43,492 nt of DNA from Candidatus Omnitrophota bacterium (GTDB lineage Bacteria > Omnitrophota > Gorgyraeia > JABMRN01 > RBG-13-46-9). The position numbers were made by a program, and so were the translations under genes. How positions within the stretch are numbered: position 1 is the stretch's first letter; each line of letters begins with the position of its first letter. The notes under the pieces were generated by a model. It searched no databases. It was given only the letters and a program-made list of their open reading frames with translations, and was not told where the DNA came from. Of this stretch, positions 4,356 through 35,581 are shown one piece after another. The stretch is taken from positions 1 through 43,492 of the forward strand of contig JADHYM010000008.1 in NCBI GenBank assembly GCA_016782445.1, written 5' to 3'.

Positions 4356-5241
4356 TTTTCATAAATCCGTCATGGCTGATGAGGCCATAGATTTTCTGAG
4401 GCCGCAAAAAGGCAGCGTCATCCTGGACGCCACCGTAGGCTGCGCGGGACACGCCGAAAAAATACTCGAGAAAATATCCCCGGGCGGTTTTTTAATAGGC
4501 ATTGACGCCGACCGAGAGTCGCTGGCCATAGCCGAAGAAAGATTAAAGAATTTTGAGCGGGCTTCCTACACATTGCTACACGGGAACTTCAGGGACATGG
4601 ACAGGCTTTTTGAAAAGCTAAATATAAAACGCATAGACGGCGCTCTTTTTGACCTCGGAATATCAAGCTACCAGCTGGAAAACCCGGAGAGGGGATTCAG
4701 TTTCGGGCGCAGCGGTTTTTTGGACATGCGGATGGATAAGTCAAATCCCCTACGGGCCTACGACGTGGTTAATAAGTGCAAACGAGAGGATCTCGAAAAT
4801 ATAATAAGAGATTTCGGCGAGGAACGCTACTTTAGGAGGATAACCGGAGCAATCCTCGAGGAAAGAAAAACCCGTTCCATAAAGACAACTAAAGAGCTGG
4901 CGGATCTTATAACACGGGCCGTAGGCGGAAGATATCGGTCGCAGAAAATACACCCCGCGACGCGCACCTTTCAGGCGCTGCGTATCGCGGTTAACGACGA
5001 GCTCAAAAGTCTAGAGGGCGCCATTTCGAAAGTATGGAATTTTTTAAATTGCGGAGCACGCGCCTGCATCATATCCTTTCACTCGCTTGAAGATCGCATA
5101 GTGAAGAGAAGCTTTAAGGAGCTGGCTAAGAACGAAAGGGCCCTGATACTGACGAAAAAGCCGGTTGTGCCTTCCGAAGATGAAAAAAGAGAAAACGCGC
5201 GTTCGCGCAGCGCAAAAATGAGAGCAGCGGAGAAAAAATAA
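4342..5241 (+). CDS. rsmH: 16S rRNA (cytosine(1402)-N4)-methyltransferase
   Basis: This is RsmH (MraW), the SAM-dependent methyltransferase acting on C1402 of 16S rRNA in the decoding centre. The 299-residue protein opens with the conserved His-x-x-Val segment (FHKSVMADEAIDFL), then the SAM-binding loop ILDATVGCAGHAEKIL. Further family blocks are DGALFDLGISSYQLENPERGFSF, IHPATRTFQALRIAVNDEL and ISFHSLEDRIVKRSF. The TTG start at 4342 is preferred because the first ATG (4372) would cut off the conserved histidine. It has no good Shine-Dalgarno of its own and lies inside the end of the preceding small frame, consistent with translational coupling. Its TAA overlaps the ftsL ATG by one base. Confidence 0.93.
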   Translation: MTELNFHKSVMADEAIDFLRPQKGSVILDATVGCAGHAEKILEKISPGGFLIGIDADRESLAIAEERLKNFERASYTLLHGNFRDMDRLFEKLNIKRIDGALFDLGISSYQLENPERGFSFGRSGFLDMRMDKSNPLRAYDVVNKCKREDLENIIRDFGEERYFRRITGAILEERKTRSIKTTKELADLITRAVGGRYRSQKIHPATRTFQALRIAVNDELKSLEGAISKVWNFLNCGARACIISFHSLEDRIVKRSFKELAKNERALILTKKPVVPSEDEKRENARSRSAKMRAAEKK

Positions 5242-5621
5242 TGGTCAATACGCGATTTCTAAAACATATTTTCTGCATTATAGCCTGCGGCGCAATGGCG
5301 CTTATTTACGTGCATCAGGAAGTGGAAATCGTAAAAACGAGTTACGCGATAAATGAGCATCGCAGGTCTCTCTCTTTCCTTCTTGACCAACACAGAGGCC
5401 TCGTATATAATCTATCCCGTCTTGGCGCTCCAAAACGTATCGAAGACAATCTCAAGCTGAACGAGGTTGTTTTGTGCATGCCCACAAAGGACAATGTCCT
5501 TCACCTGGACCCCGGCGAAAGCGTTTACCGGCAAAATGATAGAGCGACGAAGCCGAGTTCGCACCTAGCCAAAGTCCTGGATACGTTTACGGCCAAAGCG
5601 GAAGCAAAAGTTGCATATTAA
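5241..5621 (+). CDS. ftsL: FtsL-like cell division protein
   Basis: A 126-residue bitopic protein: short cytoplasmic N-terminus, one membrane helix at about residues 8-22 (HIFCIIACGAMALIYV), then a helical periplasmic region (residues 27-60) suited to a coiled coil. Sequence conservation in FtsL is low, so the call rests on topology, size and the canonical position between rsmH and ftsI. FtsL would form the FtsQ/L/B-type complex that activates FtsW-FtsI. The region after residue 70 is polar and longer than in many FtsL proteins. It starts on the last base of the rsmH stop and overlaps ftsI by 11 bases. Confidence 0.75.
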   Translation: MVNTRFLKHIFCIIACGAMALIYVHQEVEIVKTSYAINEHRRSLSFLLDQHRGLVYNLSRLGAPKRIEDNLKLNEVVLCMPTKDNVLHLDPGESVYRQNDRATKPSSHLAKVLDTFTAKAEAKVAY

Positions 5622-7314
5622 TTTTAAAAAAACACGCCTAATCGCACTTTTCGTACTCTCTATCTCGCTATTTGCCATTCTTTTCGGCCGACTTTTCTAT
5701 ATACAGGTCATAAATAGAAATTTCTACAAAGAACTTGCCGCAAAACAGCACAAGCTTTTTATTGAGCTTGTGCCCAGGAGGGGAGGCATATACGACAGGC
5801 GCAAGCGCATTCTAGCCACTTACCTCGAGGTACCTTCTATCTACGCTGTTCCGCGCCAGATAATAGAAAAAAAGTATGTTGCCCGCGCGCTCGCAGACGC
5901 GTTCGATTTGGACGAAGAAGATCTTTTGAAAAAACTCGAGCGCGACAATTACTTCGCCTGGGTAAAGCGAAAAATAACCGGGGATGAAGAAGCAAGATTG
6001 AAAAAACTCGATCTTAACGGCGTATATCTGAACAAGGAGAAAAAGCGTTTTTACCCTGCGGGCGAGCTTGCCTGCCACGTGCTGGGCATTGTGAACATAG
6101 ACAATCAGGGCCTGGAGGGAGTAGAACTCGCCTATGACAGAATATTAAAAGGCGAGCCGGGCTGGCGCAGGTCCTTTCGGGACGCGAAGCTTAGAGAAAT
6201 AAATTATGCCCGGGCCGAAGTGCTGCCGGCCAGGGATGGCTTCGGTGTGGTTTTGACGATCGATGAGATTATTCAGCATATTATAGAAAAGGAACTGGAT
6301 TTTTTAGTTAAAGAATATAGGCCCGATGCCGTTTCCATAGTAGCGATAGAGCCTTCAACCGGCGAGGTTCTGGGCCTGGCGAATTACCCTGCGTTTGACC
6401 CCAACCAGCTTGATCGTATAGAAATGGATTCTGTCCGTAATAGAGCAATAACCGATTCATTTGAGCCGGGAAGCGTGTTTAAAATAGTTACCGCATCCGC
6501 TGTGATCGAGGAAAAAGCCGCGGACCTCGAAGAGGAATTTTTCTGTGAAAACGGCACCTATCGGGTAGCGCGTAGGGTCTTGCATGATTATAGGGGTTAT
6601 GGTACATTAACATTCAGAGAGGTAATTGAAAAATCGAGCAACATAGGAACGGTAAAGGCTGCCTCGCGCCTCGGCAAGGAAAAACTATGCGAGTACATAA
6701 CAAAATTCGGTTTCGGGAAAAATACGGGAATCGACCTTCCGGGAGAGACCCGGGGCATAATGCGGGACCCTTCGGGATGGTCTGAGAGCGATATGACTAC
6801 GGTTCCCATGGGACAGGGCATAGCAGTGACGCCCATCCAGCTTGCCTCGGCAGTGTCGGCCATAGCTAACGACGGTGTTTTGATGAAGCCGCACGTTTTA
6901 AAGGAAATTCTTAATACGGAAGGTATTACTGTGCGCGAGGAAAAGCCGAAACCTGTACGACGTGTCCTGTCAAAAGAGGAGGCGCTTAAGGTAAAAGAAT
7001 TACTTATGGGCGTTGTTGAAAGAGGCACGGGGCGTCGCGCCAGGCTTGATAATTTTACGGCCTCCGGCAAAACCGGAACGGCCCAGAAGGTAAACCCGAA
7101 AGGGGGTTATTTTAAGAATAAATACATAGCCTCCTTTGTCGGTTTTGCCCCTTCGCGGGAACCGAGAGTAGCGCTTGTTGTATCGCTGGATAATCCGCGC
7201 GGCGAGCATCTGGGAGGAAGGGTAGCTGCGCCGGCATTCAAACGGATTATGGAAAACATATTATCCTACCTTGAGGTAGAAAGCGACAGGGATGAAACTA
7301 AGAGATCTTCTTGA
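5611..7314 (+). CDS. ftsI: Division-specific penicillin-binding protein FtsI (PBP3)
   Basis: This is a class B transpeptidase that cross-links septal peptidoglycan. The 567-residue protein has an N-terminal membrane anchor (residues about 10-28), the dimerisation/pedestal domain beginning RRGGIYDRRKRILA, and a transpeptidase domain. That domain carries all three active-site motifs: S288-V-F-K291 (nucleophilic serine), S342-S-N344 and K487-T-G. No PASTA domain is visible. The start is TTG at 5611, just ahead of the membrane anchor and within the end of ftsL. The 3' end overlaps murE by 23 bases. It sits in the standard rsmH-ftsL-ftsI-murE order, which supports a septal rather than an elongation role. 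Confidence 0.93.
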   Translation: MHINFKKTRLIALFVLSISLFAILFGRLFYIQVINRNFYKELAAKQHKLFIELVPRRGGIYDRRKRILATYLEVPSIYAVPRQIIEKKYVARALADAFDLDEEDLLKKLERDNYFAWVKRKITGDEEARLKKLDLNGVYLNKEKKRFYPAGELACHVLGIVNIDNQGLEGVELAYDRILKGEPGWRRSFRDAKLREINYARAEVLPARDGFGVVLTIDEIIQHIIEKELDFLVKEYRPDAVSIVAIEPSTGEVLGLANYPAFDPNQLDRIEMDSVRNRAITDSFEPGSVFKIVTASAVIEEKAADLEEEFFCENGTYRVARRVLHDYRGYGTLTFREVIEKSSNIGTVKAASRLGKEKLCEYITKFGFGKNTGIDLPGETRGIMRDPSGWSESDMTTVPMGQGIAVTPIQLASAVSAIANDGVLMKPHVLKEILNTEGITVREEKPKPVRRVLSKEEALKVKELLMGVVERGTGRRARLDNFTASGKTGTAQKVNPKGGYFKNKYIASFVGFAPSREPRVALVVSLDNPRGEHLGGRVAAPAFKRIMENILSYLEVESDRDETKRSS

Positions 7315-12512: not shown

Positions 12513-13592
12513 ATGCGCAATATAAGAAGATCAATATTTATAATCATGATAGCGCTTTTAACGTTCGGCTGCGTCATGATATACTCGGCAAGCGCCATCC
12601 ACGCTCATGAAAACTACTCCGACAGCATGTATTTTTTGAAAAGGCACTTAATTTTTCTCTTGCTGGGATTCGGCCTCATGATTTTTCTGATGTCGGTTGA
12701 TATATCGCGCCTTGAGAGAGCCGCCAAGCCGCTAATGATAGCCTCTCTCGCACTTCTTGCGCTTGTCCTGATCCCCAACATAGGAAGCTCGGTCGCCGGG
12801 GCCCGCAGGTGGTTTAGAGCCGGGCCATTAAGTTTCCAACCCTCAGAATTGGCGAAATTCGCCCTGGTTATTTACATAGCGTCGTATCTCGATAGAAAGG
12901 GGTACAAAATAAAAGATTTTTTCTACGGATTTTTGCCGATCGTATCGGTTATATCGCTTACAGGGATACTCGTGCTTTGTCAACCGGATCTGGGAACGTC
13001 GCTTTCTGTATTTTTCATAGGATTTCTCATGCTCTTTGTAGGAGGCGCGAGCGTTCTTTATTTAGGCTCAATCGCGCTTTTGAGCCTGCCTTTTCTTTAC
13101 TATCTTATTTTTAGCGTTCCGTATAGAAGGAGAAGAATCCTTGTTTTTCTCGATCCCTGGCGTGACTCAGAAGGTGCCGGTTTTCAGATAGTTCAGTCGT
13201 TCATAGCCCTTGGTTCGGGCGGGCTCTTAGGGGTCGGCCTGGGGCAGTCTACGCAAAAACTTTTTTACCTACCTGAATCTTACACGGATTTTATTTTTTC
13301 GATTGTGGGAGAAGAGCTCGGGTTTCTCGGGGCGGCGTCTCTGGTTTTGTTATTTGGGGTATTCATATGGCAGGGAATGCGGGCCGTTTTTTTTACGGAG
13401 AGCATTTTCAAAAAAACGCTTCTTTTCGGCGTAACAGGCATGATAGCGTTTGAGGTGCTGATAAATATCGGCGTAAGCTCGGGCCTTTTCCCGACAAAGG
13501 GCCTGCCCCTTCCATTCATAAGCTATGGCGGGTCATCTCTATTGTTTCATATGGGCGCAGCAGGGATCATGTTGAACGCGATGAGGGAGTAG
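12513..13592 (+). CDS. ftsW: SEDS peptidoglycan polymerase FtsW
   Basis: FtsW is the septal SEDS-family glycosyltransferase that polymerises lipid II together with FtsI. The 359-residue protein has about ten membrane segments. It carries the family signatures ARRWFRAGPLSFQPSELAK, QPDLGTSLSVFF, LPESYTDFIFSIVGEELGF and LPFISYGGSSLLF. It is a paralogue of rodA at 34487-35581; the FtsW call comes from its place between murD and murG. A 104-base gap with a heptad-repeat hairpin separates it from murG, one of the few real gaps inside the cluster. Confidence 0.95.
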   Translation: MRNIRRSIFIIMIALLTFGCVMIYSASAIHAHENYSDSMYFLKRHLIFLLLGFGLMIFLMSVDISRLERAAKPLMIASLALLALVLIPNIGSSVAGARRWFRAGPLSFQPSELAKFALVIYIASYLDRKGYKIKDFFYGFLPIVSVISLTGILVLCQPDLGTSLSVFFIGFLMLFVGGASVLYLGSIALLSLPFLYYLIFSVPYRRRRILVFLDPWRDSEGAGFQIVQSFIALGSGGLLGVGLGQSTQKLFYLPESYTDFIFSIVGEELGFLGAASLVLLFGVFIWQGMRAVFFTESIFKKTLLFGVTGMIAFEVLINIGVSSGLFPTKGLPLPFISYGGSSLLFHMGAAGIMLNAMRE

Positions 13593-17056: not shown

Positions 17057-17968
17057 ATGGGAAAATACGGTAAAATAGTTGTTCTCGCAGGCGGTCCCTC
17101 AAGTGAGCGGGAAATAAGCTTAAGGAGCGGACGCGCTGTTGCCGGCGCTCTTAAACGCCGGGGGGAGGAAGCGGAACTTTTCGAGCTTAAGGACGATATT
17201 TACGATGAGGTAAAGTCAGTAACCGCTGGCATTGCTTTTATAGCGTTGCACGGAAAGTTCGGAGAGGACGGAACGGTTCAGGGAATTCTGGAAGATATGA
17301 AAGTACCCTATACCGGTTCCGGTATTCACGCCTCCAGGCTTGCTCTTGATAAAATTGCCTCGAAGGAACTTTTTTTTAGAAACGGGCTGAATGTCCCGGA
17401 TTATAGGATCGTCGAGAAAGAAGCCAAAATTTCTTTGGAGGAGTTTACTCCTTTTTTCGTGGTGAAACCCCCGCTTGAGGGCTCGAGCATCGGGCTTACG
17501 GTTGTCAGGGAAAGAAAAGAAACCAAAGCCGCGCTAAAGAAGGCGTGGCAATACAGCGATGCAGCGCTGGTGGAAGAATATATAGAGGGCCGGGAGCTTA
17601 CGGTAGGAATATTGGACGGGAAAGCGTTTCCGATAATCGAAATCTTTACAAAAAACAAGGTGTATGATTTCGAAGCCAAATATGTGGATGCCGGGACAAC
17701 ATATGAGGTACCGGCAAATTTAAAAAAAGAGGAAAGTGAAAAAGTCGAAGTCGCGGCTTTAGCCGCTTACAAAATTCTTGGATGCAGGCATTTTGCAAGG
17801 GTTGACTTAAAGTTGAACAAAAAAGGCGTAATATACGTTCTTGAGGTGAATACAATTCCCGGCATGACCGAAAGAAGCCTTCTCCCGAAAGCGGCAAGGG
17901 CCAGCGGGATAAACTTTGACGATTTATGTTTAAATATTATTGGGTTGGCTTACGGAAGAAAAGAATGA
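17057..17968 (+). CDS. ddl: D-alanine-D-alanine ligase
   Basis: Ddl makes the D-Ala-D-Ala dipeptide used by MurF. The 303-residue protein has the N-terminal VLAGGPSSEREISLRSG block and then ALHGKFGEDGTVQGILE. The ATP-grasp core follows (VVKPPLEGSSIGLTVV, ALVEEYIEGRELTVGI), with the metal-binding C-terminal LEVNTIPGMTERSLLPKAA. The size is normal for Ddl. No Shine-Dalgarno is obvious before the ATG. The gene is separate from MurC, unlike the chlamydial MurC-Ddl fusion. Confidence 0.95.
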   Translation: MGKYGKIVVLAGGPSSEREISLRSGRAVAGALKRRGEEAELFELKDDIYDEVKSVTAGIAFIALHGKFGEDGTVQGILEDMKVPYTGSGIHASRLALDKIASKELFFRNGLNVPDYRIVEKEAKISLEEFTPFFVVKPPLEGSSIGLTVVRERKETKAALKKAWQYSDAALVEEYIEGRELTVGILDGKAFPIIEIFTKNKVYDFEAKYVDAGTTYEVPANLKKEESEKVEVAALAAYKILGCRHFARVDLKLNKKGVIYVLEVNTIPGMTERSLLPKAARASGINFDDLCLNIIGLAYGRKE

Positions 17969-17976
17969 GAGGTAAC

Positions 17977-18738
17977 ATGAAAAAGAAGAACAATGCAAAA
18001 AACAAGAAAATAATGCCGAAAAAGCCGCAGGGAAAGGGCTTTTACAAAATCCTTATTACTGTTCTGCCCATTTGTGTTCTCACGCTGGCGCTTTTGGCTT
18101 TCTTTAGGAACTCCGACTATTTCAGGATAGCTGAAATAGAGATGATAGATAGCGAATCAGGCGCCGGGATTAGCGCAGGGGACCTCTTGAAAATGTATAA
18201 AGGGCGCAACATTTTCGAGGTAGATATAAACATGCTTGCCTCAAGGATAAAAACGGAAAATCCTTTTATTAAATACGCTATTGTTAAACGCGTTCTTCCC
18301 AACAGACTCGAGATCAGCGTTGTCGAGCGAATTCCCGTAGCGCTCGTCAAAGCCCGGGAAGACTATCCCGTAGATGCTGACGGCATGGTGCTGCCTTCTG
18401 AGGTGGGAGACAAACAACTTATCGCCATTAGCGGCGTGCATTCATGGGCAATACCGGAAGCGGGAAGAAAAATAGTGGATCGCAATTTAAGGACCGCACT
18501 AGCTCTTGTAAAACTATTTAAAGAAAAATCAATAACTGACGTGCGTTCGATAGACACAAGCGACCGGCGAAACGCTATTTTTCAGCTTAAAAACGGTGTC
18601 GAAATAAAAATAGGCAATGAAGACTTCGATCCGCGGCTTGATATGCTAAAAGCCACATTGAGCAGGAAGGGCCTGGACTTCGAGAATATAAGGTATATCG
18701 ATTTAAGATTCAAGGACGTAGTTATAAAGCCGAGGTAA
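17977..18738 (+). CDS. ftsQ: Cell division protein FtsQ (POTRA domain)
   Basis: A 253-residue bitopic protein. It has a lysine-rich cytoplasmic tail (residues 1-22), one membrane helix (about 24-44), then a POTRA domain starting at the conserved I-x-x-I-E segment (FRIAEIEM) with NIFEVDINMLASRI and ERIPVALVKARE. A following beta domain contains the usual region around VRSIDTSDRRN. FtsQ recruits FtsL/FtsB and regulates FtsWI. The ATG at 17977 is chosen because AGAGG lies close upstream; an in-frame ATG at 17965 overlaps the ddl stop and is the alternative. The position between ddl and ftsA is canonical. Confidence 0.9.
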   Translation: MKKKNNAKNKKIMPKKPQGKGFYKILITVLPICVLTLALLAFFRNSDYFRIAEIEMIDSESGAGISAGDLLKMYKGRNIFEVDINMLASRIKTENPFIKYAIVKRVLPNRLEISVVERIPVALVKAREDYPVDADGMVLPSEVGDKQLIAISGVHSWAIPEAGRKIVDRNLRTALALVKLFKEKSITDVRSIDTSDRRNAIFQLKNGVEIKIGNEDFDPRLDMLKATLSRKGLDFENIRYIDLRFKDVVIKPR

Positions 18739-18742
18739 ATTT

Positions 18743-19807
18743 ATGACAGGCCTCATTACAATTCTGGATCTTGGATGCGACAGATTGGCAGCCTGTTTGG
18801 GGAGCATCCACAAAAAAAGTTCACTTTCTATTTTTGCGCGAGAAAGCGCGCCCTCCCGCGGGATAAAGGACGGAGCTGTTATTGACGCGGCCATGGCCAT
18901 AGAGGAAATCACTGCGCTCCTCTCAAAGCTGCGCCGAAAAAATAAACGCGTTACACGCGGCGTACATGTTACTATAACCGGTTCCGGATTAAGCTCGCAG
19001 GTTTCGCGCAGCGTTATACCGCTTGCCAGGATACCCCGCGAGATCTCGAAAAAAGATATAAAAAAATGCATAAACATAGCGAGTCTAGTAAGGCTACCCC
19101 CTGACAGGGCTATCGTGCAGAAAATCGTTAAGGGTTATTCCGTGGATTCCGGCGCGCTTAACATTGTAAACCCCCTGGGCCTCTACGGAATAAAACTGGA
19201 GTCGGAAATGCTGCTTTTGACAGCGAGCCTATCTCATGTGGACACCATTTCTAAGGTTATAGATCATTCCGGATTTTTTCTGGAAAAATTTCATCTCGCG
19301 AGTCTCGCCAAATCGTACAGCCTGCTGGATGAGCGCGATAAAGACGCGGGGGCGATTTTGCTCGACGTTGGAACCGGGATAAGTGAGGCAGCGGTTTACA
19401 AAAATAAAAGTTTTTTGCAGCTCGAGACAATAAAGAAAGGAACGGGCTTTTTTATAAATAGCGACACAACGCTAAACAAAGAAAAACTAGGAACTCTTTT
19501 AAGCGAACTTTTTAAGGGCCTGGACCTTAAGGAGAAAAAGGATGTTGCCTCTTTAGTCATAACCGGGAAAGGCGCGCTTCTAGACGGCATGATAGAAGAG
19601 GCCGAGCGCGTAACCAAGATCCCGGCGCGCCTGGGCGCGATAAAGCGCGCGCCCGTGCAGCTTAACTCCGAAGATTCAATCGTGCACGCCGCGACGATAG
19701 GGCTCCTCTACCGTATAGCCGAAGAGTACCGATTTTTTGATATGACGAAAAACCCTATCCAAAAAACCCTCCACAAGCTGATCGATATCTACGAGAGTTA
19801 CTTTTAA
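18743..19807 (+). CDS. ftsA: FtsA-like division protein, shortened
   Basis: This is an actin-fold membrane tether of the divisome. At 354 residues it is well below the usual 400-plus. The phosphate-1 loop is atypical (ITILDLGCDRLAACLG). Subdomain 1C is recognisable: GVHVTITGSGLSSQVSRSV, REISKKDIKKCINIA, GYSVDSGALNIVNPLGLYG. Phosphate-2 is ILLDVGTGISEAAVY (D208) and the adenosine motif is ITGKGALLDG (273-282). Only about 67 residues separate these two motifs, far fewer than in typical FtsA, implying loss of most of subdomain 2B. A C-terminal amphipathic helix (KTLHKLIDIYESYF) fits a membrane-targeting sequence. No ftsZ follows. The family call rests on 1C, the C-terminal helix and position. 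Confidence 0.82.
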   Translation: MTGLITILDLGCDRLAACLGSIHKKSSLSIFARESAPSRGIKDGAVIDAAMAIEEITALLSKLRRKNKRVTRGVHVTITGSGLSSQVSRSVIPLARIPREISKKDIKKCINIASLVRLPPDRAIVQKIVKGYSVDSGALNIVNPLGLYGIKLESEMLLLTASLSHVDTISKVIDHSGFFLEKFHLASLAKSYSLLDERDKDAGAILLDVGTGISEAAVYKNKSFLQLETIKKGTGFFINSDTTLNKEKLGTLLSELFKGLDLKEKKDVASLVITGKGALLDGMIEEAERVTKIPARLGAIKRAPVQLNSEDSIVHAATIGLLYRIAEEYRFFDMTKNPIQKTLHKLIDIYESYF

Positions 19808-19840
19808 TAACAAACAATGCTTAACCCGTTTTTCGTCGGA

Positions 19841-19978
19841 CGGTTGCGGCTGTGTCCCTAGCGGTCTGTATAGAAAAATGCGTTGCTAGAGATTCTCTTC
19901 GGTCATCGCGCGAAACGTCGGGCGTTTTTCGGTTGTGTGTATTTTACTGACGCAACCGACCAACGGAAACCGCAACCG
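19841..19978. repeat. Dispersed palindromic element, copy 1
   Basis: CGGTTGCGG (19841-19849) and CCGCAACCG (19970-19978) bound a structured AT/GC-mixed element in the ftsA-yggS gap. It shares its left end (GGTTGCGGYTGTGTC), its right end (GACGCAACCGA...ACCGCAACCG) and a 13-base core (GCGCGAAACGTCG, 19908-19920, inverted) with copy 2 at 28907-29020. No open frame of note occurs in it. It separates the dcw cluster from the following promoter. Confidence 0.8.
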
Positions 19979-20000
19979 GGAGAGCATACTTTCAAATTTA

Positions 20001-20029
20001 TTGACATCATAATACATGTATGCTACCCT
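20001..20029 (+). promoter_or_regulatory. Promoter of yggS-proC operon
   Basis: TTGACA (20001-20006), 17 bases, then TACCCT (20024-20029). The box is preceded by TGC, giving an extended -10 form that may offset the weaker -10. It lies 25 bases before the yggS ATG, so the leader would be very short. Confidence 0.55.
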
Positions 20030-20053
20030 AAACGGTCATCATAGTAATATTAT

Positions 20054-20707
20054 ATGAATATTAGGCATAATATTAGTGAAGTACTGGCGAGGATAGACAA
20101 GGCTGCTAAAAAAGCAGGCCGCGATCCGGAAGCTGTTAAGCTTATTGTGGTTACAAAAGAGGCCTCGGAAGGCGAAATAAGGGAGGCTATCTCTTCGGGA
20201 CAGTTAGAGTTGGGCGAGAATAGGGTAAACGAAGCTCTTTTGAAGCAAAAAACAATTAAAAACGCTCGCTGGCACATGATAGGGCATCTCCAGACGCGAA
20301 AGGCAAAAGACGCCGTTCGGATATTTACGCTGATACATTCGGTCGACAGTATAAAACTTGCGGAAAAAATCGACGCTGAATCGACGAAAAGAGATAAAAA
20401 ACAGGATTTGCTAATAGAGGTAAATACCTCGGGCGAAAAAAATAAGTTCGGGATTGCGCCGGCGGAACTCGAAGATTTCATTAAGGAAACCGCCCGGCTC
20501 AAAAGCATAAAGATAAAGGGCCTTATGACAATGGCGCCTTTTTCCGGTAACGCGGAAGACTCCAGAGTTTTTTTCAGGAAATTGAGAGAGCTCGCGGATA
20601 AAAACAATTTAAAGGAACTCTCGATGGGGATGACGCAAGATTTCGAAGTAGCCGTAGCCGAAGGCGCGACAATGGTGCGCATCGGAAGCGCGATATTCAA
20701 GGAGTAA
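20054..20707 (+). CDS. yggS: YggS-type pyridoxal phosphate homeostasis protein
   Basis: This 217-residue single-domain PLP-binding barrel is of the YggS/PROSC family, which buffers PLP and affects amino-acid and cofactor balance rather than catalysing a known reaction. The Schiff-base lysine is K35 in VVTKEAS. Other conserved blocks are GENRVNEALLKQ, WHMIGHLQTRKAK, IHSVDSIKLA, VNTSGEKNKFGI and the phosphate-binding LSMGMTQDFEVAVAEGATMVRIGSAIF. No Shine-Dalgarno is seen, and the leader is short. YggS next to proC and yggT is a recurrent arrangement beside dcw clusters. Confidence 0.94.
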   Translation: MNIRHNISEVLARIDKAAKKAGRDPEAVKLIVVTKEASEGEIREAISSGQLELGENRVNEALLKQKTIKNARWHMIGHLQTRKAKDAVRIFTLIHSVDSIKLAEKIDAESTKRDKKQDLLIEVNTSGEKNKFGIAPAELEDFIKETARLKSIKIKGLMTMAPFSGNAEDSRVFFRKLRELADKNNLKELSMGMTQDFEVAVAEGATMVRIGSAIFKE

Positions 20708-20711
20708 AAAA

Positions 20712-21509
20712 ATGAAATTAGGCATAATCGGTTGCGGGAACATGGGAAGTGCTTTAGTGGAGGGCGTTATTTCTAAACGCATACTTCCTTTTAACCGCAT
20801 TTTCATAAGCGACAAGGACCCGCACAAGACAAAAAGGCTAAACAGGAAATTCGGGCCGCGTATTAGCTCGACCGAAGACATTGGAAAAAACTGCGACTTT
20901 ATAATCATAGCAGTCAAGCCGCAGGATTCAAAGAATGTGATTGCCAAGATTTCGGAGAATCTCAGCGCCAGGAAGCACCTCGTGTCAATCATGGCAGGGG
21001 TTACACTAAAAAAACTCGAGAATCTTGCGGAAAAAAAAATAGCGATAACGCGCGTTATGCCTAACATTGCGGCCCTCGTAGGCAAAAGCATGACAGTTCT
21101 TTGTCATAACAAGCTGGTAAGGGATAAAGCGGTTGTTAATAGGGTCCTCTCTTCCATCGGCGAGGTTATTGAAATTGACGAGCGACACATGGACGCGGCG
21201 ACGGCCGTGGTAGGGTCGGGCCCGGCCTATTTTTTCTATCTGGCCGAGCATTTAAGGGACGCCGCTATGAAACTCGGTATAAAAAAAGACATTGCCTTAA
21301 GGCTCGCGCTTTTTACGCTTGTCGGCAGCGGGGCGCTGGCAGAGGCACTTCCGGAAACCCCCGAGTCCCTACGCGCACGCATAACATCCGGGAAAGGAAC
21401 CACTGAGGCGGCTCTCAAGGTTCTCGTCAGGAAGGAATTTAAAAAAGTGATGCACGAGGCTGTTCGGGCCGCTGCGAAAAGATCAAAAGAACTTTCAATG
21501 GGGGCATAA
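20712..21509 (+). CDS. proC: Pyrroline-5-carboxylate reductase
   Basis: ProC catalyses the last step of proline synthesis, reducing 1-pyrroline-5-carboxylate with NAD(P)H. The 265-residue protein has an N-terminal Rossmann loop (LGIIGCGNMGSALVEGV), the middle blocks AVKPQD and ITRVMPNIAALVGKS, and the C-terminal helical dimerisation domain with GSGPAYFFYLAEHLRDAA and RARITSGKGTTEAAL. Length is typical. It begins four bases after yggS and ends one base before yggT. Confidence 0.95.
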   Translation: MKLGIIGCGNMGSALVEGVISKRILPFNRIFISDKDPHKTKRLNRKFGPRISSTEDIGKNCDFIIIAVKPQDSKNVIAKISENLSARKHLVSIMAGVTLKKLENLAEKKIAITRVMPNIAALVGKSMTVLCHNKLVRDKAVVNRVLSSIGEVIEIDERHMDAATAVVGSGPAYFFYLAEHLRDAAMKLGIKKDIALRLALFTLVGSGALAEALPETPESLRARITSGKGTTEAALKVLVRKEFKKVMHEAVRAAAKRSKELSMGA

Positions 21510-21510
21510 A

Positions 21511-21798
21511 ATGTATACTTTTTTTTCGGGTCTTGCGTGGCTAGTAGATAAAATATTTCTAATAATCTATTATCTTTTGGTTGTCCGCATTATATTGTCA
21601 TGGTTCGGAATGAATCGCTACAATGAGCTTACGCAGATTCTTCTTAAGATAACGGACCCGATTTTAATGCCTTTCCGCAGGCTTCCTCTGCAGGTAGGCC
21701 CCATGGATTTTTCGCCTATCCTTGCGTTTTTTATCCTGTGGTTTTTGAGGATACTAATCGTCGGATGGCTAATCAGGTTAGCGGCTTTATTTTTATGA
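21511..21798 (+). CDS. yggT: YggT family membrane protein
   Basis: A 95-residue protein with two hydrophobic helical regions (about 10-30 and 65-92) flanking a conserved loop. The family signature is VVRIILSWFGMNRYNELTQ followed by TDPILMPFRRLPL and MDFSPILAFFILWFLR. Members are inner-membrane proteins next to yggS/proC and division genes. Roles in osmotic tolerance and cell-envelope or chloroplast division-like processes have been suggested for relatives. The exact function here is unknown. Confidence 0.92.
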   Translation: MYTFFSGLAWLVDKIFLIIYYLLVVRIILSWFGMNRYNELTQILLKITDPILMPFRRLPLQVGPMDFSPILAFFILWFLRILIVGWLIRLAALFL

Positions 21799-30370: not shown

Positions 30371-31450
<1,080 letters not shown>

Positions 31451-31471: not shown

Positions 31472-32257
31472 TTGCAATTCTATAGAATAAGAAAATTTCC
31501 CACCAAGCTCACAATTGTCTTTATCATATGCCTTGTATTTTTTTTAAATCCGGACTTGCGGCTTTGGCTTAAAAAATTTACTTTTCATGTCGCCTACATA
31601 CCTGCGCGTGCCTTTCAAAACATAAAAAACAGCTTCGCAAAAACAGAACGCTTAAACGAAGAAAACCTGGATCTCAAGCGTAGGGTAGGGGAGCTGTCAG
31701 TTGAACTCTCGCGAATGAAACAAAAAAAGGAGCAAATTGAACGCCTTGAGGAACTTTTGGGCTTCAAGCTATCCTTGCGATATGAAGCAAAAGCCTCCCG
31801 TGTCATAGCGCGGGATATCGCCGGCTTTAGAAAGTTTTTTGTAATCGATAAAGGCTCTAGAGACGGAATAAACGAAAACACCCCATGCGTGAGCCTTGAG
31901 GGAATAGTGGGAAACGTTGTCGCTGTTTCGCCCAATACCTCAAAGGTCATGCTCATTACGGACCCGGCTTCCCGCATAGGCGTAACTGTTACTTCATCTT
32001 GCGAGACCGGTCTCATGTTGGGCTCTGTCGAGGGGCAGTGCAGAGTGATCTATCTTGGCCTTGACGGGGACATAAAGGAAGGTGATGAGGTCGTTACAAG
32101 CGGTACCAGCTCTCTTTTTCCGGAGGGTTTGCCGGTCGGCACGATAAAACATGTCGGGATAGAGCGCACGAAATTATATAGGTATGCTGAAATAATTCCT
32201 TACGCCGAGATGAGTAAAATCAGGGAAGTCCTTGCCATGAATACCGGTGAGCGATGA
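31472..32257 (+). CDS. mreC: Rod-shape determining protein MreC
   Basis: A 261-residue bitopic elongasome protein. A membrane helix (about residues 11-31) is followed by a coiled coil (about 45-90: ERLNEENLDLKRRVGEL) and the beta-barrel domain with FFVIDKGSRDGINENTPC, GIVGNVVAVSPNTSKVMLI and the DVVTSG-like segment DEVVTSGTSSLFPEGLPVG. MreC links the MreB cytoplasmic system to PBP2. The start is TTG at 31472, with no clear ribosome binding site; no better start precedes the membrane helix. The frame is the same as mreB, eight codons after its stop. Confidence 0.93.
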   Translation: MQFYRIRKFPTKLTIVFIICLVFFLNPDLRLWLKKFTFHVAYIPARAFQNIKNSFAKTERLNEENLDLKRRVGELSVELSRMKQKKEQIERLEELLGFKLSLRYEAKASRVIARDIAGFRKFFVIDKGSRDGINENTPCVSLEGIVGNVVAVSPNTSKVMLITDPASRIGVTVTSSCETGLMLGSVEGQCRVIYLGLDGDIKEGDEVVTSGTSSLFPEGLPVGTIKHVGIERTKLYRYAEIIPYAEMSKIREVLAMNTGER

Positions 32258-32772
32258 GCGTAAAGGCGCGGCTCAGGGTAACGCTTTATCTCTTAGTATT
32301 TTGTTTGATGATATGCGAGATTTTTATCTCGAGCGCGGCCCGAACAGTTTATGTTAAAACGGAACTCTTGCTTCTTGTAACCGTTTTTTCAGGCCTATAC
32401 TTAGGTCCGCGATACGGCGCCGAAATGGGATTTTTTTCAGGCTTGCTAAAAGATCTTATAAGCATAGGCCCTTTCGGAATAGCTGCGCTTTCTTTTTTTA
32501 TCGTGGGGCTTTTATGTGGATATCTAAAAAATCGCCTTACGCGGGAAACTTTTTTTACTCAAGTTTTAGTCTCGTTCGTTTCAAGCGTGTTTTTTTCTTT
32601 TATGGTTCTAGGATGCTTAAAAACTTTTTCCGGGGTACTTCCGGACAGAATAATTCTTAAAAATATTTTATTCCAGGCGCTCTTGACCGGAGCCTTGTCA
32701 TTGCCCTTCTTTTTCGTATTTGGAGCGGTATTTAGAAGGGCCGGGTCTCAAGTTTTCGAGGCAAACCCGTGA
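32254..32772 (+). CDS. mreD: Rod-shape determining protein MreD
   Basis: A 172-residue integral membrane protein with about five to six helices. MreD sequences are weakly conserved, but the family-like segment GPRYGAEMGFFSGLLKDLISIGPFGIAALSFFI (residues 50-82 region) with a Gly-Pro-rich turn is recognisable. MreD supports MreC and elongasome assembly. Position between mreC and mrdA is decisive. The ATG overlaps the mreC stop (ATGA) and its own stop overlaps the GTG of the next gene (GTGA). Confidence 0.88.
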   Translation: MSVKARLRVTLYLLVFCLMICEIFISSAARTVYVKTELLLLVTVFSGLYLGPRYGAEMGFFSGLLKDLISIGPFGIAALSFFIVGLLCGYLKNRLTRETFFTQVLVSFVSSVFFSFMVLGCLKTFSGVLPDRIILKNILFQALLTGALSLPFFFVFGAVFRRAGSQVFEANP

Positions 32773-34490
32773 GGCTCAGGATTCTGGGAGGCGTAATATT
32801 TCTTTTTTATTTTGTTACGGTTCTCGGGCTTTTTAACGCTCAGGTTACAAACTATAAAATTTATCGGGGCCTCTCGGAAAAAAATCGAATCAGAATACTG
32901 CCGCTCGTGTCCCCAAGGGGAAAAATCTATGACCGCTCGAAGAAGCTTCTTGTGAGCAACAGAATTGCTTTTACGGTCGGGGTGGTGTACCAGGAGCTCG
33001 GGGATAAAGAAAAAATCCTTCGTATCCTAAGTGATAAATTGGGTATCCCGGAAAAAAAACTTTCAGGAAAAATTGAAGAAGCCGGGATAAATCCCTTCGT
33101 GCCTTACAGCGTGGCAGACGAAGTAGATAAAGAAAAAGCTATACAGCTGGAAGAAATGAAATACAAACTGCAGGGCGTTATAGTTACCGCAAGGCCCATG
33201 CGGGACTATCTCTACGGCGAAAAGCTCTCGCATGTTACAGGCTATCTTGGAAAAATAAGTAAGGAGGAACTCGGAAAATTTCGTACATACGGATACATGC
33301 TCCAGGACCTTGTCGGGAAGGATGGACTGGAACGGGAATACAACGAGTATTTAAGAGGCAAAAGTGGCGGACTTCAGGTAGAAGTGGATTCCAAGGGCCG
33401 GCAGTTAAGGGTGCTGGCACTCAAGGAGCCTGCGGAAGGAAAAGATCTTTATCTTGAGATCGATCTGGAGCTTCAGGATTTCTGCAACGACGTGCTGGGA
33501 GAAAAAAGTGGCGCGATTATTGTCATGGATCCTTTTACAGGAGGCGTGTTAGCTCTTGCAAGTCGTCCGGGCTATGATCCCAATGCATTCGTGAGTTCTG
33601 AATCGGCAGGTGAAGTAAATAAGATTTTGCAGGACAGGGCGTTATACCCGCTTCTCGATCGCGCAATCGCATGCGCTTATCCCCCTGGCTCGGTTTTTAA
33701 GGTTGTCGTGGCCGCCTCTGTCCTCGATACGGGAAAACTCAACGAAACCAAGACACTTTTTTGCGGGGGAAGTTACCGAGTGGGCAACAGGGCTTTTAAA
33801 TGCTGGAAGAAGCCCGGCCACGGCACACAGAGTATAAGGGAAGCCATAAAAAATTCCTGCAACGTATTTTTTTACCAGCTTGGGTTTATAGCGGGAACAG
33901 ATTTACTGGCAGAGTATGCGCGACGCTTCGGTTTCGGTGAAAAAACCGGAATCGACCTCCCGGGGGAATCAGCCGGTTTCGTACCCACTATCGCATGGAA
34001 AAAAGAAACCCTCAAGGAGTCATGGTTCAAGGGCGAGACAGCCAATTACGCCATAGGCCAGGGATATCTTCTGGTTACGCCTATACAAGTCCTGCGCATG
34101 ATGGCTGCGGTTGCGAACGGCGGGGAGCTTCTAGTGCCGCACGTGGTAGATCGCATAGAGAACGTCGAGCTGTCACAGGGGAAGCCGCAGAAAATTGACA
34201 TTAATGGCGAGTCGCTCGAAATAATACGGGAAGGCTTAAGGATGGTTGTCAATGACCCGCATGGTACAGGAATCTACGGCCGGGTAAAAGGCGTGGTAGT
34301 AGCCGGCAAAACGGGAACGGCCGAGAACTCTCTCGGTAAGGCGCACGGCTGGTTTTCAGGTTTTGCGCCTTTTGAAGGACCGAAGCTTTGTCTTGTTGTT
34401 TTTGTCGAGCATGGCGGAAAGGGCGGAGTGGGCGCAAGCATGATAGCGCGTAAAGTCATAGAGAAGGCAAGAGGGCTGGGACTTTTATGA
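32769..34490 (+). CDS. mrdA: Elongation penicillin-binding protein 2
   Basis: A class B transpeptidase of the elongasome, partner of RodA. The 573-residue protein has one N-terminal membrane helix (residues about 3-22), a dimerisation domain beginning SPRGKIYDRSKKLLVSNR and a transpeptidase domain. Motifs are S308-V-F-K311 (nucleophile), S363-C-N365 and K514-T-G. It is distinct from FtsI (5611-7314) but shares the domain plan; the call as PBP2 comes from the mreD-mrdA-rodA context. The start is GTG at 32769, overlapping the mreD stop. The 3' end overlaps rodA by four bases. Confidence 0.94.
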   Translation: MRLRILGGVIFLFYFVTVLGLFNAQVTNYKIYRGLSEKNRIRILPLVSPRGKIYDRSKKLLVSNRIAFTVGVVYQELGDKEKILRILSDKLGIPEKKLSGKIEEAGINPFVPYSVADEVDKEKAIQLEEMKYKLQGVIVTARPMRDYLYGEKLSHVTGYLGKISKEELGKFRTYGYMLQDLVGKDGLEREYNEYLRGKSGGLQVEVDSKGRQLRVLALKEPAEGKDLYLEIDLELQDFCNDVLGEKSGAIIVMDPFTGGVLALASRPGYDPNAFVSSESAGEVNKILQDRALYPLLDRAIACAYPPGSVFKVVVAASVLDTGKLNETKTLFCGGSYRVGNRAFKCWKKPGHGTQSIREAIKNSCNVFFYQLGFIAGTDLLAEYARRFGFGEKTGIDLPGESAGFVPTIAWKKETLKESWFKGETANYAIGQGYLLVTPIQVLRMMAAVANGGELLVPHVVDRIENVELSQGKPQKIDINGESLEIIREGLRMVVNDPHGTGIYGRVKGVVVAGKTGTAENSLGKAHGWFSGFAPFEGPKLCLVVFVEHGGKGGVGASMIARKVIEKARGLGLL

Positions 34491-35581
34491 ACGGTAGTTC
34501 AAAACGGCAACTGGGAAAATTCGACTTCGTTATTTTTTTGGCAACTGTTTTTTTGAGCATATTCGGGCTTTTTTGCTTATATAGCGCGGCAGCCCAATAT
34601 TTTTCAAAGGCAATTATTCTTCGGCAAGCCATATGGCTTTTAGCGGGGCTTCTTATTTTTTGCGTGGCGCTTTTCATCGACTATAGAAAAATCGTTAATT
34701 TCTCATATTTATTCTACGGGATAACAATTCTTTTACTGATTCTTGTCCTTGCCTTCGGCCAGACGCGCGGCGGCTCGCATCGGTGGATAAACCTGGGGCT
34801 TTTTAATCTGCAGCCGTCGGAACTAGCGAAAATAGCGCTCGTATTCGCGCTTTCGACGTATCTTGGGCACAGGAAAAGGGACTCTGAGAAACCGTCATTT
34901 GTAGTGGGCGCGGCGTTAATCACGCTTCCTGTATTTTGCCTTATTCTCATTGAACCGGACCTCGGAACGGCTCTTCTTTTATTGCCCACGGCCCTTGCGC
35001 TTCTATTCATCGGCGGTGCAAAGCTGCGTTATCTTATATCGATAGCTCTTGCGTCACTTTTGTGCGTTCCGGTTTTCTGGCATTTCCTGAAGGATTACCA
35101 GAAAGAACGACTTTTGGTTTTTATCAATCCCAACATAGACCCGTTGGGGGCCGGCTACACCATAATACAATCTAAGATTGCCATAGGCTCGGGCGGCATT
35201 TTCGGGAAAGGGTGGCTTAGTGGTACCCAGAATACGCTCAATTTTCTTCCGGAGCGTCACACGGATTTCATATTTTCGGTCGTAGGAGAAGAATGGGGAC
35301 TTCTGGGCTGTCTCGTGTTTGTTTTTCTTTACTGCCTCATCGTATATAGGGGCTTGCGAATTGTAAGCCTGACAAGCGATATATATGGAAAGCTTATCGC
35401 AACCGGGTTTATAACCATATTCGCAGTTCAATCGGTCGTAAATATCGCGATGACAATAGGACTGTCGCCCGTGGTAGGGCTTACGTTACCCCTTGTAAGC
35501 TATGGAGGTTCCAGTCTAATCATTACACTTTTCTCATTAGGCGTTGTTTTAAACATAGGCATGCGACGGAGCCTATTCTAG
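34487..35581 (+). CDS. rodA: SEDS peptidoglycan polymerase RodA
   Basis: RodA is the elongation glycosyltransferase that polymerises lipid II with PBP2. The 364-residue protein has about ten helices and SEDS signatures: HRWINLGLFNLQPSELAKIA, EPDLGTALLLLPTALALLF, LPERHTDFIFSVVGEEWGLLG and LPLVSYGGSSLI. PERHTDFIFSVVGEEWG is the RodA version of the motif seen as PESYTDFIFSIVGEELG in FtsW. It closes the mre operon; a new promoter begins seven bases after its stop. Confidence 0.95.
   Translation: MNGSSKRQLGKFDFVIFLATVFLSIFGLFCLYSAAAQYFSKAIILRQAIWLLAGLLIFCVALFIDYRKIVNFSYLFYGITILLLILVLAFGQTRGGSHRWINLGLFNLQPSELAKIALVFALSTYLGHRKRDSEKPSFVVGAALITLPVFCLILIEPDLGTALLLLPTALALLFIGGAKLRYLISIALASLLCVPVFWHFLKDYQKERLLVFINPNIDPLGAGYTIIQSKIAIGSGGIFGKGWLSGTQNTLNFLPERHTDFIFSVVGEEWGLLGCLVFVFLYCLIVYRGLRIVSLTSDIYGKLIATGFITIFAVQSVVNIAMTIGLSPVVGLTLPLVSYGGSSLIITLFSLGVVLNIGMRRSLF

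Follow-up and report, generated by a model that had tools for sequence, protein, structure and literature searches.

Omnitrophota, a phylum of the PVC group, appear from profile searches to lack FtsZ, the ring protein used for division by nearly all bacteria, across essentially the whole phylum, and they keep FtsA, its usual membrane partner, which in the genome studied here and in several other lineages is without most of subdomain 2B. The best explanation overall, in which we place moderate confidence, is FtsZ-less division in which FtsA would serve as a membrane adaptor, with MreB the likeliest scaffold.

The 43-kb stretch of DNA analysed (hereafter the window) comes from a Candidatus Omnitrophota assembly (1.0 Mb, 86% complete, 37 contigs) and is a contiguous division and cell-wall region, composed of the dcw cluster, then yggS-proC-yggT and later mreBCD-PBP2-rodA. 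The dcw genes run in the order mraZ, mraW, probable ftsL, ftsI, murE, murF, mraY, murD, ftsW, murG, a murC-murB fusion, ddl, ftsQ and ftsA, with murE, murF and mraY assigned from position only. They are followed by yggS, proC, yggT, more genes including ileS, and then mreB, mreC, mreD, PBP2 and rodA. The dcw and mreBCD-PBP2-rodA clusters lie on one strand within 32 kb (window 3725-35581), division and elongation genes being nearly contiguous. The probable ftsL product has a single N-terminal hydrophobic stretch and no Pfam match. The features were as follows:

5241..5621, + strand: probable ftsL (position only: between mraW and ftsI)
5611..7314, + strand: ftsI, PBP3-type transpeptidase (Pfam Transpeptidase, PBP_dimer)
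12513..13592, + strand: ftsW (Pfam FTSW_RODA_SPOVE, 2.4e-109)
17926..18738, + strand: ftsQ (Pfam FtsQ_DivIB_C, POTRA_1)
18743..19807, + strand: ftsA, 354 aa, a short form that has lost most of subdomain 2B (Pfam SHS2_FTSA, E 8.7e-13; PDB FtsA matches)
18980..19222, + strand: FtsA subdomain 1C (SHS2), residues 80-160, full length (Pfam PF02491)
19433..19477, + strand: 2B excision site, residues ~231-245 (alignment and fragment model)
19751..19804, + strand: FtsA C-terminal amphipathic membrane-targeting helix, NPIQKTLHKLIDIYESYF (hydrophobic moment, YF end)
19808..20053, + strand: empty ftsZ slot (246 bp from ftsA to yggS, containing an imperfect inverted repeat)
20054..20707, + strand: yggS (ylmE-like PLP protein), first of the yggS-proC-yggT cluster (Pfam Ala_racemase_N)
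20712..21798, + strand: proC and yggT (Pfam P5CR_dimer, YGGT)
30377..31450, + strand: mreB (Pfam MreB_Mbl, 1.6e-151)
31472..35581, + strand: mreC, mreD, PBP2 (mrdA) and rodA (Pfam)

Consistently with a preliminary description of this DNA, in which the dcw cluster was canonical from mraZ to ftsA and ftsZ was absent from its usual place, ftsA comes directly after ftsQ and the interval from ftsA to yggS (20054-20707) contains no ftsZ. The source genome (86% complete) contained no FtsZ by either a tubulin/FtsZ domain model or a full FtsZ model, and profile searches found none in its family (0/8 genomes) or its order (0/11). None of the 285 genomes of an Omnitrophota phylum sample, 216 of which were at least 90% complete, held an FtsZ above the cut-off, and in a class sample of 384 genomes, which overlaps the phylum sample, a single genome (G415) did so, on a contaminant contig. 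The same search engine scored FtsZ in 13 of the 14 control genomes, and assemblies of a single contig, such as G002 (CP070780), are among the negatives. The loci examined share the gene order ddl-ftsQ-ftsA, in many of them with yggS and/or proC next, which closes the ftsZ slot. MinC and ZapA were likewise absent (0/117 genomes), which agrees only weakly with the absence of FtsZ, since many FtsZ-containing controls also lack both. The preliminary description had proposed either a relocated, altered FtsZ or division that does not need FtsZ; profile searches of the genome, family, order, phylum and class rejected the former, while the latter agrees with an absence that extends from the genome to the family, the order and, in practice, the phylum. 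At the genome level, FtsZ-independent division thus appears well supported.

Several FtsZ-like sequences were encountered in the wider samples. The G415 hit is a canonical FtsZ within an Omnitrophota assembly, carried by a 3.66-kb contig (3659 bp) that also encodes archaeal EF-1alpha and an FKBP-type isomerase; it was rejected as a native gene, and the contig is archaeal contamination. Another genome (G332, 80% complete) carried, at the edge of a contig (bases 3-116), an FtsZ-like fragment of 53 aa, a candidate chimeric end or contamination. Finally, divergent TubZ-like tubulins with a lysine-rich N-terminal extension were found in two genera of Omnitrophota, each from a different family (G206, L001:1012-2295; G415, L120:999-2261), the former matching Pfam Tubulin and TubZ-like_C. 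They reached ~50 bits to FtsZ against a cut-off of 295 bits, occurred in 2 of the 384 class genomes and were absent from the window's family and order.

In the gap that now occupies the ftsZ slot, a palindromic element and a new yggS promoter had been described. An imperfect 27-nt inverted repeat is present (19827-19853 / 19946-19972, 78%), together with one shorter repeat; folding of the gap was not significant (z = -1.6) and no consensus promoter or terminator was found in it, so the promoter was not borne out and neither element was retained as anything beyond chance.

We then explored the FtsA encoded in the window, whose homology to FtsA is clear. Its SHS2 (1C) insertion in the actin fold was recognised (PF02491, E 8.7e-13, residues 80-160) and measures 81 residues, compared with 78 in E. 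coli. The NCBIfam ftsA model matched residues 5-233 only (E 2.1e-41), ending where 2B should begin, and its equivalog cut-off was missed (142 bits vs 176). The spacing between D208 of the phosphate-2 motif and G275 of the adenosine motif, previously given as about 67 residues, counted exactly 67, compared with 126 in E. coli FtsA; by this spacing, 83 FtsA sequences sorted into three classes, a short one of 48-68 residues, a long one of 108-157 and, between them, a small one of 95. In the alignment, the 2B stretch was 20 residues long, compared with 70 in E. coli, whose positions 246-295 have no counterpart in the window protein; positions 246-267 and 279-295 were unmatched in every short form, and 268-278 in almost all. 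With approximate subdomain limits, the median 2B length was 18 residues in the short class and 69 in long-form Omnitrophota, and the two classes differed at 2B only; lengths were normal for 1A, 1C, the beginning of 2A and the C-terminal part. The excision falls after the third 2A strand and before the helix that leads into the adenosine strand.

Structure prediction agreed with the alignment. The full-length AlphaFold model was poor (pLDDT 44) and was set aside, the domain-2 fragment alone being usable (residues 186-334; pLDDT 73, pTM 0.69). In this fragment model the three 2A strands (the last at 223-230) are predicted to be followed by a short loop, a 14-residue helix (246-259) and then the adenosine strand (270-274), with no 2B elements. 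Its top PDB matches were the FtsAs of S. aureus, V. maritimus and T. maritima. The earlier proposal that most of subdomain 2B, which bears the FtsZ-tail site, is missing is therefore supported by both alignment and model. The protein keeps 1A, 1C, 2A and a C-terminal amphipathic tail, whose last 18 residues have a hydrophobic moment of 0.53 (0.51 in E. coli), and 76 of 80 relatives end in YF. The conserved tail helix and YF end argue for a maintained, membrane-bound FtsA rather than a relic. The ATP loops have diverged and the phosphate-2 loop is without GGT. An atypical phosphate-1 loop had been considered telling; it proved not to be diagnostic, as the loop reads DLGSNKI in close relatives and the phosphate-2 loop of S. 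aureus FtsA (DIGEDVTQ) is equally non-canonical, and for the latter reason we also rejected degenerate ATP loops as a marker of lost function.

FtsA is widely retained. Its SHS2 domain was detected in at least 251 of the 285 Omnitrophota genomes, and a phylum profile recovered an FtsA-like protein ending in YF from at least 8 of 20 genomes without an SHS2 match. The short form accounted for 28 of 78 Omnitrophota FtsAs, in ten family-level groups and more than one class, alongside long forms. Sister genomes bore out the shortening, since the 2B deletion was found in every close relative or family member whose ftsA was read, as well as in other families; being common to independent genomes, it is not an assembly error. 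In an FtsA tree built with the 2B columns left out, six changes were preferred over a single origin of the short form, yet one clade was not rejected (AU p 0.36). FtsZ loss is phylum-wide but 2B loss is not, so life without FtsZ does not require the loss of 2B, and 2B loss looks to have followed later, as a consequence of FtsZ loss; the simplest order would be that FtsZ was lost first and 2B later in some lineages.

Three further groups of FtsA stood out. Three FtsAs of family f5 (L018, L020, L021) are intermediate, their spacing being 95 and ~46 residues remaining in 2B; they are nested among the long forms of the same family, as a separate and partial trimming of 2B. In family f49, which belongs to another class, the genomes of L087, L088 and L092 encode a short FtsA and gave no match to the RodZ HTH model, making this family a place for separating the roles of FtsA and RodZ. 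Two FtsA-like proteins of family f8 (L102, L106) have a C-terminus other than YF and a 1C domain missed by Pfam, and are possibly a further diverged form.

Our preferred reading is that ftsZ was lost at or near the base of Omnitrophota, with the downstream cell-wall divisome and FtsA kept. In this lineage FtsA would act as an adaptor tethered to the membrane; consisting of 1A, 1C, 2A and the C-terminal helix, it would connect the cytoplasmic side of the division site with FtsQ, FtsW and FtsI, all three of which are encoded in the window. In E. coli FtsA, deletion of 2B abolishes the interaction with FtsZ, and 1C is needed for recruitment of FtsQ and FtsN (PMC4281207); FtsA filaments are held by a longitudinal IIA-IIB contact and a lateral IC-IC contact (PMC7613929). 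With 1C and the tail kept and 2B gone, the recruiting face and membrane tail are retained, and the FtsZ site and standard filament contact are lost; in shedding 2B, FtsA would have given up FtsZ docking together with its canonical longitudinal contact. The positioning or force-bearing polymer would most likely be another actin-like protein, with MreB as the best candidate, probably with a RodZ-like protein. MreB was present in 114 of 117 genomes, and a RodZ-type HTH in 103 of 117; mreB also lies in the window. The chlamydial pair of MreB and RodZ is able to take over FtsZ activity in E. coli (PMC7029139). These counts concern presence only, and MreB retention does not by itself imply a division role, because FtsZ-bearing rod-shaped bacteria also have MreB. 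A broader proposal, which we put forward tentatively as possible rather than probable, is that division in the whole phylum relies on an actin-only cytoskeleton, and that FtsA, released from FtsZ and in several lineages stripped of 2B, is itself what organises septal wall synthesis; this would be a third division type besides FtsZ-based and FtsA-less MreB-type division.

The chief rival to FtsA as an adaptor is that 2B-less FtsA assembles by itself, using either the lateral contacts of 1C or a new longitudinal one, and replaces FtsZ as the scaffold, which we judge unlikely. FtsA is the sole early-divisome protein kept across the phylum, and the plasmid actin AlfA, which is without subdomain IIB, still forms filaments. 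AlfA (6bqw) was among the weaker fold matches of the fragment model, and the two proteins share an actin fold without IIB; the fold match is weak, however, and AlfA, whose role in plasmid segregation is unrelated, has neither 1C nor a membrane helix. The source of lateral contacts, 1C (PMC7613929), is intact in the window protein, but the known longitudinal contact is removed and the ATP loops have diverged. Moreover, long-form relatives also live without FtsZ, so that loss of 2B is unlinked to the gain of a scaffold.

Rather improbable, in our view, is a Chlamydia-like situation in which MreB and RodZ do everything and FtsA is a decaying relic, its loss having been completed in planctomycetes and chlamydiae. 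Near-universal MreB, common RodZ-like HTH proteins, the loss of 2B in several lineages, the strong divergence of FtsA in some families and the several genomes without FtsA by model would all fit such decay, and chlamydial MreB and RodZ can substitute for FtsZ activity in E. coli (PMC7029139). However, the length of 1C, the membrane helix and the near-invariant YF end are kept in about 80 diverse FtsAs and ftsA still adjoins ftsQ, which implies selection on FtsA, and family f49 combines a short FtsA with no clear RodZ match.

A diverged or relocated FtsZ, or another tubulin, that binds FtsA by a different surface is very improbable, and for the source genome this explanation is largely refuted: the TubZ-like proteins lend it some substance in two genomes, but their rarity, their absence from the window's family and order and their low FtsZ scores speak against it. 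It is possible that Omnitrophota possess an extremely diverged, unrecognised polymer. That ftsZ and 2B are merely hidden by missing contigs or a frameshift has a negligible probability despite the incomplete, fragmented source assembly, since the ftsZ slot was read through on a single contig, the deletion recurs in assemblies made independently, a single-contig chromosome among them, and FtsZ is absent across the phylum.

The absence of FtsZ in Omnitrophica has already been noted in one paper, Pende et al. 2021, where a figure legend counts them as an FtsZ-less phylum and the wording implies that FtsA is present (PMC8178401). In Rivas-Marin et al. 2016 a single Omnitrophica genome, OLB16, was reported to have FtsZ, the other two being left uncertain (PMC5147048); OLB16 is now classified as Candidatus Hinthialibacterota and was therefore rejected as a counter-example, which corrects the record and allows Omnitrophota to count as an FtsZ-less phylum. 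A 2025 study found the dcw genes highly conserved in Omnitrophota and did not single out ftsZ (PMC12283558), and the text of the main survey of the phylum is silent on both FtsZ and FtsA (PMC10066038). We found no account of an FtsA without 2B in the open-access literature, and the conserved 2B-less form appears undescribed. FtsA is normally defined by FtsZ tethering, and an FtsA without FtsZ separates an FtsZ-independent job, the recruitment and activation of wall synthases, from that tethering. Through natural deletion, the short forms lack just the subdomain that serves FtsZ docking and filament contact; they make the role of FtsA without FtsZ, and its need to polymerise, testable in vitro and in E. 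coli, and FtsZ-less Omnitrophota with a trimmed FtsA constitute a natural test of FtsZ-free division.

Compared with the FtsAs of E. coli, Thermotoga maritima, Staphylococcus aureus and Vibrio maritimus, the window protein has the same actin fold, the same 1A, 1C and 2A subdomains and the same C-terminal amphipathic membrane helix; its gene follows ftsQ in the dcw cluster as theirs do, here with no ftsZ behind it. It differs in the absence of GGT from its phosphate-2 loop, in a genome without FtsZ and in the loss of ~50 residues of 2B, and hence of the FtsZ-tail site and the canonical IIA-IIB longitudinal contact. We do not claim it as an FtsZ anchor, its defining partner being absent from the genome. 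The earlier likening to planctomycetes and chlamydiae holds in that Planctomycetota and Chlamydiota, of the same PVC group, also have no FtsZ, with MreB present in many; peptidoglycan genes are kept here, as in Chlamydiota and some planctomycetes. It fails for FtsA, since Planctomycetota and Chlamydiota are also without FtsA and have a degraded dcw cluster (PMC8178401, PMC12283558), whereas Omnitrophota keep both FtsA and a contiguous dcw cluster.
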